DNA from: Granulicella sp. 5B5
Lineage (GTDB): Bacteria; Acidobacteriota; Terriglobia; Terriglobales; Acidobacteriaceae
DNA length: 64,000 nucleotides
Reading direction: 5' to 3'
Assembly: GCF_014083945.1 (NCBI RefSeq)
Contig: NZ_CP046444.1
Coordinates: 3,844,001 to 3,908,000 of the forward strand
The translations under genes were made by a program, and so were the position numbers. Position 1 is the first letter of the stretch; the number at the start of each line of letters is the position of its first letter. Below the pieces are notes generated by a model. That model did not search any database. It was not told the origin of the DNA and saw nothing but the letters and a program-made list of their open reading frames with translations. This document shows positions 24,294-27,727 of the stretch, in pieces.

Positions 24294-24332
24294 GAAAGCG
24301 GCTTCCTGTCGCTCATAAGAATTTCCTATGCG

Positions 24333-24347
24333 TCATAAGAATTATGA
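24333..24347. promoter_or_regulatory. Perfect palindromic operator candidate upstream of the sulfite reductase promoter
   Basis: TCATAA-GAA-TTATGA is a perfect 15-base dyad. A second half-match, TCATAAGAATT, lies 20 bases upstream at 24313-24323, i.e. two helical turns away. Both sit immediately upstream of the -35 element, as expected for an activator site. The binding protein is unknown. Confidence 0.6.
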
Positions 24348-24350
24348 GGA

Positions 24351-24379
24351 TTGACGCTGGGCTAAAGCGTCACTACTCT
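24351..24379 (+). promoter_or_regulatory. Sigma-70-type promoter of the leader/sulfite reductase operon
   Basis: TTGACG at 24351-24356 and TACTCT at 24374-24379 are separated by exactly 17 bp. The predicted start site, 7-8 bases after the -10 box, falls on or beside the A of the leader-peptide ATG at 24387. The message may therefore begin without a 5' leader. Confidence 0.65.
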
Positions 24380-24386
24380 TAGCTCT

Positions 24387-24455
24387 ATGAAGTCTTCACG
24401 CATCGCGGCCTGTTGTCCGTGCTCTTACACTCAGGCGCGCGGAGCCACTTCTTAG
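24387..24455 (+). CDS. 22-residue cysteine-codon leader peptide (candidate attenuator uORF)
   Basis: This small ORF begins MKSSRIAACCPCSY and ends in TAG at 24453-24455. Cys codons are at positions 9, 10 and 12. It lies directly behind a promoter, with no ribosome site and probably a leaderless start. It precedes an intrinsic terminator and the sulfite reductase gene. This is the layout of amino-acid attenuation: cysteine shortage would stall the ribosome on the Cys codons. GGCGCGCGG at 24434-24442, inside the ORF, can pair (one mismatch) with CCGAGCGCC at 24480-24488, which overlaps the terminator's 5' arm. Stalling would leave this antiterminator free, and full translation would cover it. 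The mechanism is inferred; the sequence elements are seen directly. Confidence 0.68.
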   Translation: MKSSRIAACCPCSYTQARGATS

Positions 24456-24485
24456 TAAGAACCAGAAGCAGGCTTTCTACCGAGC

Positions 24486-24513
24486 GCCCACGATCCGCAT
24501 CGTGGGCTTTGTT
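24486..24513 (+). terminator. Intrinsic terminator / attenuator ahead of sulfite reductase
   Basis: GCCCACGAT (24486-24494) and ATCGTGGGC (24499-24507) form a perfect nine-base-pair stem with a four-base loop, followed by TTTGTT. It stands between the leader ORF and the TTG start of the reductase at 24537, so it must be read through for operon expression. Confidence 0.82.
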
Positions 24514-24536
24514 GTATGCCGTCATAGGAGATCCAG

Positions 24537-26267
24537 TTGAGCCAGGAAACCGCAGCACCGATCCAAGAGACTAAGGCGCCCAAAGAGACCAAGGCGCAGC
24601 GCGCCGAACGTCTGAAGCTCGCCAAGAACCCCTGGGATGCCTGGGATGAGGTCCGCCAGTTCGCCCGCGAGGGCCGCGGCAGCGTATTGCCAGAGTGGAC
24701 CGGCCTCTACTTCAAGTGGTGGGGCGTCTACACCCAGGGCGACGGCCTCGGCGTCACCGGCGGCAAAAACGGCGAAGGCCTCGCCAGCGACTACTTCATG
24801 ATGCGCATCGGTCTGCCTAACGGCCTGCTCACCGCACGCCATCTGCACGTCATCGCCGACCTCACCGCCAAGTACGCACGCGGCGTGGCTGACATCACCA
24901 CCCGCCAGAACATCCAGCTCCACTGGCTCACCATCGAGTCGCTGCCCGAGGTCGTCGACGCGCTCACCGCGATCGGCCTCTCGCCCAAGGGCGCCTGCGG
25001 CGACGTAGTCCGCAACGTCACCGGCTGCCCACTCGCCGGCATTGACGGCCACGAACTGATCGATGCCTCGCCGCTCGCCGTCGAGATCGCACAGAAGCTC
25101 ACCGCAAACCCTGAGTTCTACAACCTGCCGCGCAAGTTCAAGATCAGCGTCACCGGCTGCCCCATCTGGTGCTCGTACCCCGAGATCAACGACGTTGCAC
25201 TCACCGCCCTCAAGCGCGTCAAGGACGGCAGGGAAGAGATCGGCTACTCGCTCCGCGTCGGTGGCGGCCTCTCCACCGAGCCGCACATTGCCGTGCGCCT
25301 CAACGCCTTCATCCCGCAGGACAAGGCGTATGACGCTGTAAAGGCCGTCTGCGAGATCTTCCGCGAGCAGGACGCGCTGCGCGAGAACCGCACCCGCGCC
25401 CGCATCAAGTACCTCTTCATGCGCCACGGCTGGACCGCCGAGCAGATGCTTGCCGCTATCGAGGAGAAACTAGGCTACAAGTTCGACCCCGCTGACGAAG
25501 GCCCCATCGCGGATGACGTCTACCGCGATCACGTCGGCGTCCATGCGCAGAAGCAGCCCGGTCTCAGCTACGTCGGCGCAACCGTCCTCAACGGCCGCCT
25601 GAACCCGGAGCAGCTGCATGCGCTCGCCACACTCTCTGAGACCCACGGCGACGGCCACCTCCGCGCCACCATCGGCCAGAACATCGTCCTCGTCAATATC
25701 CCCAACGACAAAGTCGCGTCTCTTGTAGACAAGATCACAGCACTCGGCCTGCAGGTCGAGCCGACCGTCTTCTTCCGTGGCGCCGTCGCCTGCACGGGCA
25801 CCGAGTACTGCAAACTCGCCATCGCCGAAACCAAGGCCTTCAACAAGTGGCTGGTCGGAGAGATGGAGCACCGTCTGCCGAACTTCGATCAACAGATTCG
25901 CCTGCACGTCACCGGCTGCACCAACTCCTGCGGCCAGAGCTGGATCGCCGACATCGGCCTCGAAGGCAAGAAGCTCAAGAAGGACGGCCAGATGGTCGAC
26001 GCCTTCTACTTCTGCGTCGGCGGCGCGGTTGGAGAGCACGCCGGCATCGCCCGCCAGATCGGCTACCGCGCCGCTGCCGAGGACTGCCCAGAAGCCATCG
26101 AACGCCTGCTGAGCGGCTATCTGACCGCACGTACGCCAGGTGAAGACCTGCGCTCCTACTTCCGCCGCACCAGCGACGAAGATCTTCGCGCGTTGCTGAA
26201 TGGCGCTGTCGTCGAAGCCGTCGAGCGCGACCCCTCGCCGGGCCGTGTGCCCGCGAGCGTCGGCTAA
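24537..26267 (+). CDS. Ferredoxin-type sulfite/nitrite reductase (siroheme, 4Fe-4S)
   Basis: The 576-residue enzyme performs six-electron reduction of sulfite (or nitrite) in the cytoplasm. It has the duplicated half-domains of the family. The substrate-binding and cluster motifs include TRQNIQLHW and NVTGCPLAGID. The 4Fe-4S/siroheme cysteines occur in VACTGTEYCKLA (C-x5-C) and HVTGCTNSCGQSWIAD (C-x3-C). The start is TTG at 24537 with TAGGAG six bases upstream. Siroheme-synthesis genes follow directly. The cysteine-codon leader upstream argues for sulfite rather than nitrite, but the family alone does not decide it. Confidence 0.9.
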   Translation: MSQETAAPIQETKAPKETKAQRAERLKLAKNPWDAWDEVRQFAREGRGSVLPEWTGLYFKWWGVYTQGDGLGVTGGKNGEGLASDYFMMRIGLPNGLLTARHLHVIADLTAKYARGVADITTRQNIQLHWLTIESLPEVVDALTAIGLSPKGACGDVVRNVTGCPLAGIDGHELIDASPLAVEIAQKLTANPEFYNLPRKFKISVTGCPIWCSYPEINDVALTALKRVKDGREEIGYSLRVGGGLSTEPHIAVRLNAFIPQDKAYDAVKAVCEIFREQDALRENRTRARIKYLFMRHGWTAEQMLAAIEEKLGYKFDPADEGPIADDVYRDHVGVHAQKQPGLSYVGATVLNGRLNPEQLHALATLSETHGDGHLRATIGQNIVLVNIPNDKVASLVDKITALGLQVEPTVFFRGAVACTGTEYCKLAIAETKAFNKWLVGEMEHRLPNFDQQIRLHVTGCTNSCGQSWIADIGLEGKKLKKDGQMVDAFYFCVGGAVGEHAGIARQIGYRAAAEDCPEAIERLLSGYLTARTPGEDLRSYFRRTSDEDLRALLNGAVVEAVERDPSPGRVPASVG

Positions 26268-26276
26268 GATTCTGCC

Positions 26277-26921
26277 ATGAGCCTCTTCCCGATCTTCCTC
26301 AAGCTCGCTGCTCGGCCCTGCGTTGTCATCGGCGCAGGGACTATCGCTGAATCGAAGATCGAAAGCCTGCTCATTGCCGAAGCCAGCGTAACGGTCATCG
26401 CGCCTGCAGGCCTCGAACGAGTCCAGCGCTGGGCTGAGTCCGGTGAGATCACCTGGCATCGCCGCGAGTACACGCAAGGCGATCTCGCTGGCGCATTCCT
26501 CGCCGTCGCCGCGACCAACACGCCCGCTGTCAACCGCGCCGTTTATGCAGAGGCGAATGCCGCCAATATCCTCTGCAACGCGGTCGACGATCCACCCTTC
26601 TGCGACTACTACTTCCCATCGGTAGTGCGTCGTGGCGAGCTGCAGATCGCCATCTCCACCGCTGGCGAAAGCCCTGCGCTCGCACAGAGTCTGCGCAAGG
26701 AGATCAACGCAGCGTTGCCGCTGGATACCGGTGAATGGCTCATGGAGCTAGGCCGTCTGCGTCGCGAGGTCACAGCCGTCGAACCGATCGGCGATCAACG
26801 CAAGTTGCTGCTGCATGAACTCGCGCAACGTGAGGTCTGCGGGTTCGATCAATGTCCCTCGCGCATGCGCGCCCGCCAGCACGCCCGCGAACACGGCTGG
26901 CTGCCGAAGGAGACCGCATGA
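26277..26921 (+). CDS. Precorrin-2 dehydrogenase / sirohydrochlorin ferrochelatase
   Basis: This 214-residue stand-alone version of the CysG N-terminal half (Met8/SirC type) oxidises precorrin-2 and probably inserts iron to make siroheme. The NAD-binding start LAARPCVVIGAGTIAESKI is visible, as are the family blocks VDDPPFCDYYFPSVVRRGEL and ISTAGESPALAQSLRKEI. It follows the reductase by 9 bp and overlaps the next gene by ATGA, so cofactor synthesis is coupled to reductase production. Confidence 0.92.
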   Translation: MSLFPIFLKLAARPCVVIGAGTIAESKIESLLIAEASVTVIAPAGLERVQRWAESGEITWHRREYTQGDLAGAFLAVAATNTPAVNRAVYAEANAANILCNAVDDPPFCDYYFPSVVRRGELQIAISTAGESPALAQSLRKEINAALPLDTGEWLMELGRLRREVTAVEPIGDQRKLLLHELAQREVCGFDQCPSRMRARQHAREHGWLPKETA

Positions 26922-27727
26922 GCCGCATCACACGCGCCGAGAAGGGACACGTCTATCTCGTAGGCGCAGGCCCTGGCGATCCAGAACTGCTAACGCTGCG
27001 CGCTCTGCGCCTGCTCGAAACAGCGGATGTGATCTTTCATGATGACCTCGTCCCTGATGAGGTACTGGCACTCGCACACCGCCACGCGCTCATCACCAGC
27101 GTGGGCAAGCGCTGCGGCAGGCCACGCATCACGCAGGCCGAGATCCACACGCTGATGATTGACTCCGCGCTCGCAGGGCAGTCGGTTGTGCGTCTCAAGA
27201 GCGGCGACCCGTTGGTCTTCGGCCGCGCGGGCGAGGAGATCGCTGCGCTTCAGTCTGCGCAAATCCCGCTCGAAGTTGTTCCCGGAGTAACCGCGGCCTT
27301 TGCCGCCGGCGCAGTACTCGCACTGCCGTTGACCGACCGCAAACGCGCATCGAAACTGATCCTGTGCACAGGCCATCACGCGGCTGAAAAGCAATCGACG
27401 GCACCGCTGTGGTCCGGCCCACTGCCGGACGATGCAACCTTGGCTATTTACATGCCAGGCCGCGATACGGTACGGATTGCGGCAGAGCTCGCTGCGACCG
27501 GGCTCGCCACAGACATTCCTTGTTGTGCGATCTCACATGCGGCCACTCCGAGGCAGAGCCATGCTATGGCCAGACTAAGTGAATTGCCTGCGCTTGTGTG
27601 CGGCCCTGCGCCGTTGCTCCTGCTAGTCGGACGAGCGCTGGAGCCGTTATTCCACGCTGAAAACAAAACGGTCGATGAGGTCCTCAACCTCATCGACCGC
27701 GCAATGGAACTCCACGAGGAATCCTAG
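26918..27727 (+). CDS. cobA: Uroporphyrinogen-III C-methyltransferase
   Basis: The 269-residue SAM-dependent enzyme methylates uroporphyrinogen III at C2 and C7, the first step towards siroheme. It starts GHVYLVGAGPGDPELLTLRA and contains DVIFHDDLVPDEVL, VRLKSGDPLVFGRAGEEI and EVVPGVTAAFAAGA, all diagnostic. The ATG at 26918 overlaps the preceding gene by four bases. It converges on the hydrolase gene downstream with the two stop codons sharing CTAG at 27724-27727. Confidence 0.94.
   Translation: MSRITRAEKGHVYLVGAGPGDPELLTLRALRLLETADVIFHDDLVPDEVLALAHRHALITSVGKRCGRPRITQAEIHTLMIDSALAGQSVVRLKSGDPLVFGRAGEEIAALQSAQIPLEVVPGVTAAFAAGAVLALPLTDRKRASKLILCTGHHAAEKQSTAPLWSGPLPDDATLAIYMPGRDTVRIAAELAATGLATDIPCCAISHAATPRQSHAMARLSELPALVCGPAPLLLLVGRALEPLFHAENKTVDEVLNLIDRAMELHEES

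Follow-up and report, generated by a model that had tools for sequence, protein, structure and literature searches.

A cysteine-codon leader and terminator ahead of the sulfite reductase operon of Granulicella sp. 5B5: a very probable transcription attenuator conserved among relatives

Results and Discussion

The sulfite reductase locus

The window analysed is a stretch of 64,000 nucleotides of the Granulicella sp. 5B5 genome (NZ_CP046444.1, positions 3,844,001 to 3,908,000). The locus of interest (Table 1) consists of a promoter, a short cysteine-codon ORF and a hairpin, followed by genes that a preliminary description, made from the sequence alone, had assigned to sulfite reductase and siroheme synthesis; domain matches agree with that assignment.

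Table 1. Features of the leader and of the downstream genes, numbered from the first letter of the window
Feature	Coordinates	Strand	Details
Sigma-70-type promoter of the leader, TTGACG-17-TACTCT	24351..24379	+	-35 at 24351-24356, 17-nt spacer, -10 at 24374-24379
Leader ORF MKSSRIAACCPCSYTQARGATS, 22 codons	24387..24455	+	ATG at 24387, stop TAG at 24453-24455
Regulatory Cys codons TGT TGT (CCG) TGC, predicted ribosome stall site	24411..24422	+	
Antiterminator 5′ arm GGCGCGCGG, within leader ORF	24434..24442	+	predicted pairing
Antiterminator 3′ arm CCGAGCGCC	24480..24488	+	shares the first three bases of the terminator
Intrinsic terminator, stem GCCCACGAT/ATCGTGGGC and U tract TTTGTTGT	24486..24515	+	
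NirA/SirA-type ferredoxin-dependent sulfite reductase	24537..26267	+	TTG start, AGGAG ahead of start
Siroheme synthase N-terminal domain protein (precorrin-2 dehydrogenase type)	26277..26921	+	
Uroporphyrinogen-III C-methyltransferase	26852..27727	+	true start may be later than 26852

The reductase matches the Pfam nitrite/sulfite reductase domains (siroheme/4Fe-4S). It scores below the cut-offs of the NCBIfam equivalogs for NirA, ferredoxin-nitrite reductase and sulfite reductase and 0.3 bits above that of CobG (235.1, cut-off 234.8), so an automatic pipeline could give it the wrong name. Among solved structures the best match is NirA of Mycobacterium tuberculosis (1zj8, E 1e-88), a sulfite reductase also named SirA. 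In the structure alignment the enzyme retains the Tyr and the Cys of the Tyr-Cys link of M. tuberculosis NirA, while the two aligned plant nitrite reductases have Met at the Cys position. A PF01507 (PAPS_reduct) match is located 1.5-1.8 kb past the end of the reductase gene, on the same contig and strand, in ten genomes of the family (G004, G005, G006, G011, G013, G014, G028, G035, G045, G048) among the 27 with a PF01507 match out of 40 searched; the PF01507 genes of Granulicella sp. 5B5 itself lie elsewhere. Because of the NirA-type Tyr and Cys and the PF01507 neighbours in ten genomes, the enzyme would be an assimilatory sulfite reductase. Its closest named relative, among the best 80 of 595, belongs to Granulicella sp. 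S156 (89% identity).

Anatomy of the leader region

The ATG of the leader ORF lies 7 nt past the -10 box TACTCT of the promoter, a feature absent from the preliminary description. The Cys codons of the ORF are numbers 9, 10 and 12, as that description had it (TGT at 24411, TGT at 24414 and TGC at 24420). The terminator stem begins 30 nt past the stop codon; its nine perfect pairs (24486-24494 with 24499-24507), also previously noted, enclose a 4-nt loop, though the U tract TTTGTTGT is imperfect, with a U-rich tail extending to 24515. The two segments that had been proposed to pair in place of the terminator are present, and eight of nine positions of GGCGCGCGG and CCGAGCGCC pair (one G/A mismatch), but the overlap of CCGAGCGCC with the 5′ arm of the terminator comprises only its last three bases (GCC). 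Folding of the leader taken alone (a 144-nt stretch) is not unusual (z -0.88; 41 of 200 shuffles fold equally well), as would also fit a chance ORF ahead of an ordinary intergenic terminator, and the case therefore rests on comparison with relatives.

Just 5′ of the promoter, at 24314-24346, are the inverted repeats CATAAGAATTTCCTATG and CATAAGAATTATG, which are possible regulator sites, as is another inverted repeat (GACGCT...AGCGTC, 24353-24371) that overlaps the -35 box and the spacer. The sequence 5′ of the promoter at one related locus (L083) is similar to the inverted-repeat region of the window.

Conservation of the cysteine-codon ORF

Reductase loci for comparison were taken from a scan of named genomes (the best 80 of 595 relatives) and from a search of 200 genomes of the family, of which 152 had a match at E <= 0.001, some of them weak; the latter search returned 30 loci, to which 80 further near-full-length matches were added as a selection from its listing. 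Removal of 23 duplicates from the total of 190 left 167 loci, 164 of them with at least 300 nt of upstream sequence. A short ORF with at least three Cys in 12 residues is found in 142 of the 164 upstream regions (86.6%). The corresponding frequencies are 13% among 3280 dinucleotide shuffles, 9.6% among 426 other windows and 5.5% among the 164 antisense strands. An ORF of this kind with a promoter directly ahead of its start is found in 119 of the 164, compared with 4 of the 3280 shuffles (any start of a qualifying ORF being counted, at a promoter cut-off of 7.3), 3 of the 426 other windows and none of the antisense strands. The Cys ORF is therefore conserved far beyond chance, and the probability that it merely happens to precede an intergenic terminator is negligible.

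A broader scan of the 167 loci for leader candidates (at least two Cys in 8 amino acids, within 350 nt), in which promoter score contributed to the choice of start codon and promoters were thereby favoured, gave candidates at 155 loci and none at ten, two loci being too short. Eight of the 155 look spurious (L025, L040, L065, L078, L079, L098, L103, L105). The leader peptides span MKSSRIAACCPCSYTQARGATS to MSGSQNFRQMCRCTCCCCCCCCAFVSSDARGLLT; the number and order of Cys residues vary widely, from 2-3 to 10, and outside the Cys cluster the peptide varies from clade to clade.

About 6 kb of sequence up to the reductase gene were inspected in seven genomes that lack a leader at the usual position (six of the ten lacking a candidate, and that of L103). 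Three of these loci (L208, L209, L210) have, farther upstream, a promoter-like sequence and then a Cys-rich ORF, which is followed by a terminator in the two that were read further (L208 and L209); at the other four (L204-L207) no leader was seen by eye in about 6 kb, a few weak Cys ORFs being judged not to be leaders. Of 13 reductase loci from elsewhere in the phylum, outside the family, four (L191, L197, L200, L203) show by eye a Cys-rich ORF and then a terminator; a three-Cys ORF far upstream of L196 was not counted as a leader. L191, which is the same sequence as L080, has two Cys-leader-like ORFs, each with a terminator, in tandem within 400 nt of the reductase gene. Three records titled Verrucomicrobia, Opitutia and Methylomirabilota (L006, L029, L065) contain reductase loci of acidobacterial type (82, 63 and 59% identity), of which L006 and L029 carry the leader too; these are either misbinned contigs or cases of transfer.

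Codon use and selection on cysteine

In leaders with at least three Cys, the ratio of UGU to UGC is 491:256, compared with 97:987 in stretches of the reductase genes. In 33 independent pairs of related leaders, non-synonymous differences affect 32 of 198 Cys positions versus 160 of the 568 remaining ones (p 8e-4); the Cys positions show 50 codon differences, 18 of them synonymous. Because UGU is preferred and non-synonymous changes of Cys are fewer, the coding of cysteine appears to be under selection, through a codon that the reductase gene seldom uses.

Retention of Cys over other residues would also be expected if the leader encoded a functional Cys-rich peptide, such as a metal-binding or thiol-binding small protein, with the terminator only tuning expression of the operon; but the variation of the peptide between clades outside the Cys cluster, together with a terminator, an antiterminator and rare UGU codons for which such a peptide has no need, makes this explanation hardly plausible. 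The same terminator switch might instead be operated by a stall of another cause than uncharged Cys-tRNA, be it redox state, a metal or arrest by the nascent chain, inasmuch as poly-Cys tracts could be sensitive to redox conditions or metals. This is very unlikely, in that widely varying Cys number and order and a strong preference for UGU are what would be expected if the speed of codon translation is sensed.

Promoter position and terminator

A strict set of 130 leaders was defined by at least three Cys in 8 amino acids and a promoter score of at least 6.5. The start codon is 6 or 7 nt past the -10 box in 92 of them, the -35 box starts with TTGAC in 96 and the spacer is 17 nt in 108. Shine-Dalgarno-like motifs are present ahead of 3.8% of the strict leaders and of 67% of 164 reductase starts. 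A promoter score of at least 7.5 is attained by 93.8% of the strict leaders versus 0.28% of 8710 other ATGs, but since the strict set was itself selected on promoter score, the fair control for the promoter is the shuffles (4 of 3280, above). The position of the promoter suggests that the leader mRNA in the window is probably leaderless, with its AUG at or next to the +1 nucleotide.

A terminator lies 3′ of 150 of the 155 leader candidates (in a few cases far away or at a spurious candidate) and after 129 of the 130 strict leaders, at a median of 30 nt past the stop codon. Strong terminators (dG <= -10 and a good U tract) follow 123 of the 130 strict leaders versus 7 of 520 shuffles; terminators of any strength were found in 87 of the 520. 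The preliminary description had called for alignment of relatives to ascertain whether the ORF, its Cys codons and the terminator are conserved, and with 119 to 142 of 164 upstream regions and all but one of the strict leaders, they are. The anatomy of the leader region and its conservation are shown at the level of sequence.

Predicted switching by ribosome position

The leader is, very probably, a cysteine-sensing, ribosome-mediated transcription attenuator that acts via the supply of Cys-tRNA. Transcription would begin at the leader AUG or immediately beside it, enabling a ribosome to load on the 5′ end of the RNA without a Shine-Dalgarno site. With ample Cys-tRNA, the ribosome would pass the UGU and UGC codons to the stop codon and cover the 3′ segment of the ORF, allowing the terminator to form and RNA polymerase to leave after about 125 nt. 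With scarce Cys-tRNA, the ribosome would stall at codons 9-12, and the freed 3′ segment of the ORF would pair with the stretch just 5′ of and inside the 5′ arm of the terminator, delaying or preventing termination so that the sulfite reductase and siroheme operon is transcribed. The response to cysteine and the transcription start site are parts of this mechanism that we infer.

Sequence features of the proposed antiterminator recur among relatives. In several clades the 3′ end of the leader ORF imitates the 3′ arm of the terminator, with CTGGCG for the AGAGRLLT clade, CGCGGGC for L026 and GCGGGTTTT for the two loci L200 and L203, which are of other families. Among 13 chosen near relatives (two further ones, L021 and L086, were left out), the box just ahead of and within the terminator arm and the complementary ORF segment change in concert in several: GGCGC with GCGCC (window, L003), GGCAC with GTGCC (L002, L084), GGCACTT with AAGTGCC (L006) and GGTACTCGG with CCGAGTGCC (L005). 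The pairing is bulged in L004 and L023 and less full in L083, L088 and L008, and in L007 and L085 the segments pair without reaching the terminator arm. In a 28-row alignment of one clade (clade A), the antiterminator pairs in 87% of cells versus 27-53% when the segments are slid, and covariation is not beyond that of shuffles; pair counts excluded the alignments of three other groups, whose rows differ in pairing register. Compensatory changes, which the preliminary description had also proposed to look for, thus exist as co-changing arms in several of the near relatives, but do not exceed shuffles in the large clade. When the duplex of each ORF segment with its own terminator arm was ranked against those with all terminator arms, the mean rank was 0.321 (0.5 expected), and 39 of 146 loci reached p <= 0.05 against mononucleotide shuffles, a count confounded by relatedness; the ranking is supportive of the antiterminator pairing.

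Equilibrium folding of the whole leader was dropped as a test of the switch, because the terminator wins in nearly all states. With the complete terminator it wins even when the ribosome is stalled (mean 0.857 vs 0.951), and just 10 of 146 loci combine a value below 0.5 in the stalled state with one above 0.8 when the ribosome is at the stop codon. Therefore, the switch must be kinetic, and RNA ending just short of the 3′ arm of the terminator was folded instead for the 146 loci, the ribosome being placed on the first Cys codon (stalled), placed on the stop codon or left out. In the stalled state, pairing of the 5′ arm of the terminator with the leader segment averages 0.578 versus 0.314 in dinucleotide shuffles (60 per locus; Wilcoxon 7e-23, a p value that overstates independence because the loci are related). 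Taken singly, 50 of the 146 loci have p <= 0.05 and none has p >= 0.95; the window has p 0.08. Pairing of the 5′ arm with any upstream partner falls from 0.585 when the ribosome is stalled to 0.212 when it is at the stop codon and is 0.405 with none, and the difference between stalled and stop positions is 0.373 versus 0.093 in mononucleotide shuffles. Over the 146 loci, the position of the ribosome is thus predicted by the folding model to decide whether the 5′ arm of the terminator is free. In the window, where only three bases of the arm are overlapped, the prediction hardly changes with ribosome position (0.35 with none, 0.40 in the stalled state, 0.36 at the stop codon). The stalling geometry proposed in the preliminary description is thus predicted for the set of loci as a whole but weak at the locus for which it was proposed.

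Leaders of other genes

A survey of PF01507 genes in 40 genomes of the family, 27 of which had a match, gave 30 loci, 16 of them CysD-type by the length of the match (about 680 nt). A Cys-rich ORF judged convincing on reading is located upstream of eight of these 16 (L213, L216, L223, L225, L227, L228, L229, L231); three others with weaker Cys ORFs (L211, L224, L239) are outside this count. One of the eight (L227) is a second leader in the genome of Granulicella sp. 5B5, MVMHRTPACLTCCSCCCQACSCGCACCR (G000:C1 3008942-3009028), ahead of a cysD-type gene, with the layout TTGACA-17-CATCCT, 8 nt, ATG and a later terminator. Of the six others that were read further, L213, L216 and L225 also have a terminator; none was seen by eye at L223, L228 and L229, which resemble the actinobacterial type. 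About 1080 nt ahead of the PF01507 match of L225, a Cys leader and terminator lie directly 5′ of a siroheme-type methyltransferase gene.

No convincing leader was found at the eight PALP-family loci of the Granulicella sp. 5B5 genome, one of which (L243) has Cys-rich ORFs without a promoter. The 1.5 kb ahead of the match to its cysS contain no ORF of 6-48 codons with at least two Cys in 10 amino acids, and no sulfate permease match (PF00916) was found in this genome. Rfam detected no related family at the leader at gathering score, SAM riboswitches and T-boxes included, and with E up to 5 a single chance match, mir-505.

Comparison with known leaders

The trp-type and his-type attenuators of enteric bacteria have a leader peptide rich in codons for the end product and an antiterminator that competes with a terminator. 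The leaders described here have an end-product-codon ORF in the 142 upstream regions counted above and a terminator between leader and first gene, and a competing antiterminator is predicted by folding over the 146 loci, weakly in the window itself; they differ from the enteric ones in being leaderless, as predicted, and in sensing cysteine, as proposed. Poly-Cys leaderless short ORFs of mycobacteria were reportedly described by Canestrari in 2020.

According to the literature on these mycobacterial ORFs (PMC13236596, PMC9031893, PMC9094748), the likenesses are a short Cys-rich ORF ahead of sulfur or cysteine genes, a leaderless start, which the promoter position indicates here too, and presumed slowing of ribosomes at Cys codons. 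The differences are the phylum and the terminator: actinobacterial Cys leaders are reported to have no obvious terminators (Seliverstov 2005, PMC1262725) and the mycobacterial ones were later described as translation attenuation (PMC13236596, PMC9031893), whereas an intrinsic terminator follows nearly every strict leader of the present set. If control were translational or Rho-dependent as in mycobacteria, a stalled ribosome would free the ribosome-binding site of the reductase gene or block Rho, and the hairpin would be incidental; the mycobacterial precedent favours this, as do the three cysD-type leaders at which no terminator was seen by eye. Such control is nevertheless improbable for the reductase leaders, given the terminator after 129 of 130 of them and a predicted effect of ribosome position that falls on the terminator arm.

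A Cys-codon leader with an intrinsic terminator, the uORFC-8-2 motif, is known ahead of cysS in Rhodobacterales (PMC8632094). It resembles the attenuator proposed here in its uORF with tandem Cys codons, two stems, a terminal U run and presumed attenuation by Cys-tRNA. It differs in belonging to Alphaproteobacteria, in preceding a cysteinyl-tRNA synthetase gene and in having two Cys codons with UGC dominant; the leaders described here precede genes of sulfite reductase, sulfate activation and siroheme synthesis, prefer UGU, have a promoter placed for a leaderless start and contain up to 10 Cys ahead of the reductase, and the cysS of Granulicella sp. 5B5 has no Cys ORF. The preliminary description had omitted this precedent, but, in line with its remark that no case was known from Acidobacteria, no Cys leader of that group was seen among the matches listed from the open-licence literature.

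Implications

On balance, it seems somewhat probable that Acidobacteriota possess a cysteine regulon, comprising sulfite reductase, sulfate activation and siroheme synthesis, that is run by leaderless transcription attenuators of an origin separate from the mycobacterial leaders, with a terminator rather than translation as the output. If so, the message opens with the start codon of its own sensor, and the first ribosome on the 5′ end decides the fate of the operon within about 125 nt. Poly-Cys leaders would then have two different outputs in two phyla, and leaderless initiation would become a testable part of attenuation. The leader is conserved over a large family of soil bacteria and, by reading, occurs at four of the 13 more distant loci of the phylum; it would serve as a built-in indicator of cysteine limitation in bacteria that are difficult to culture.
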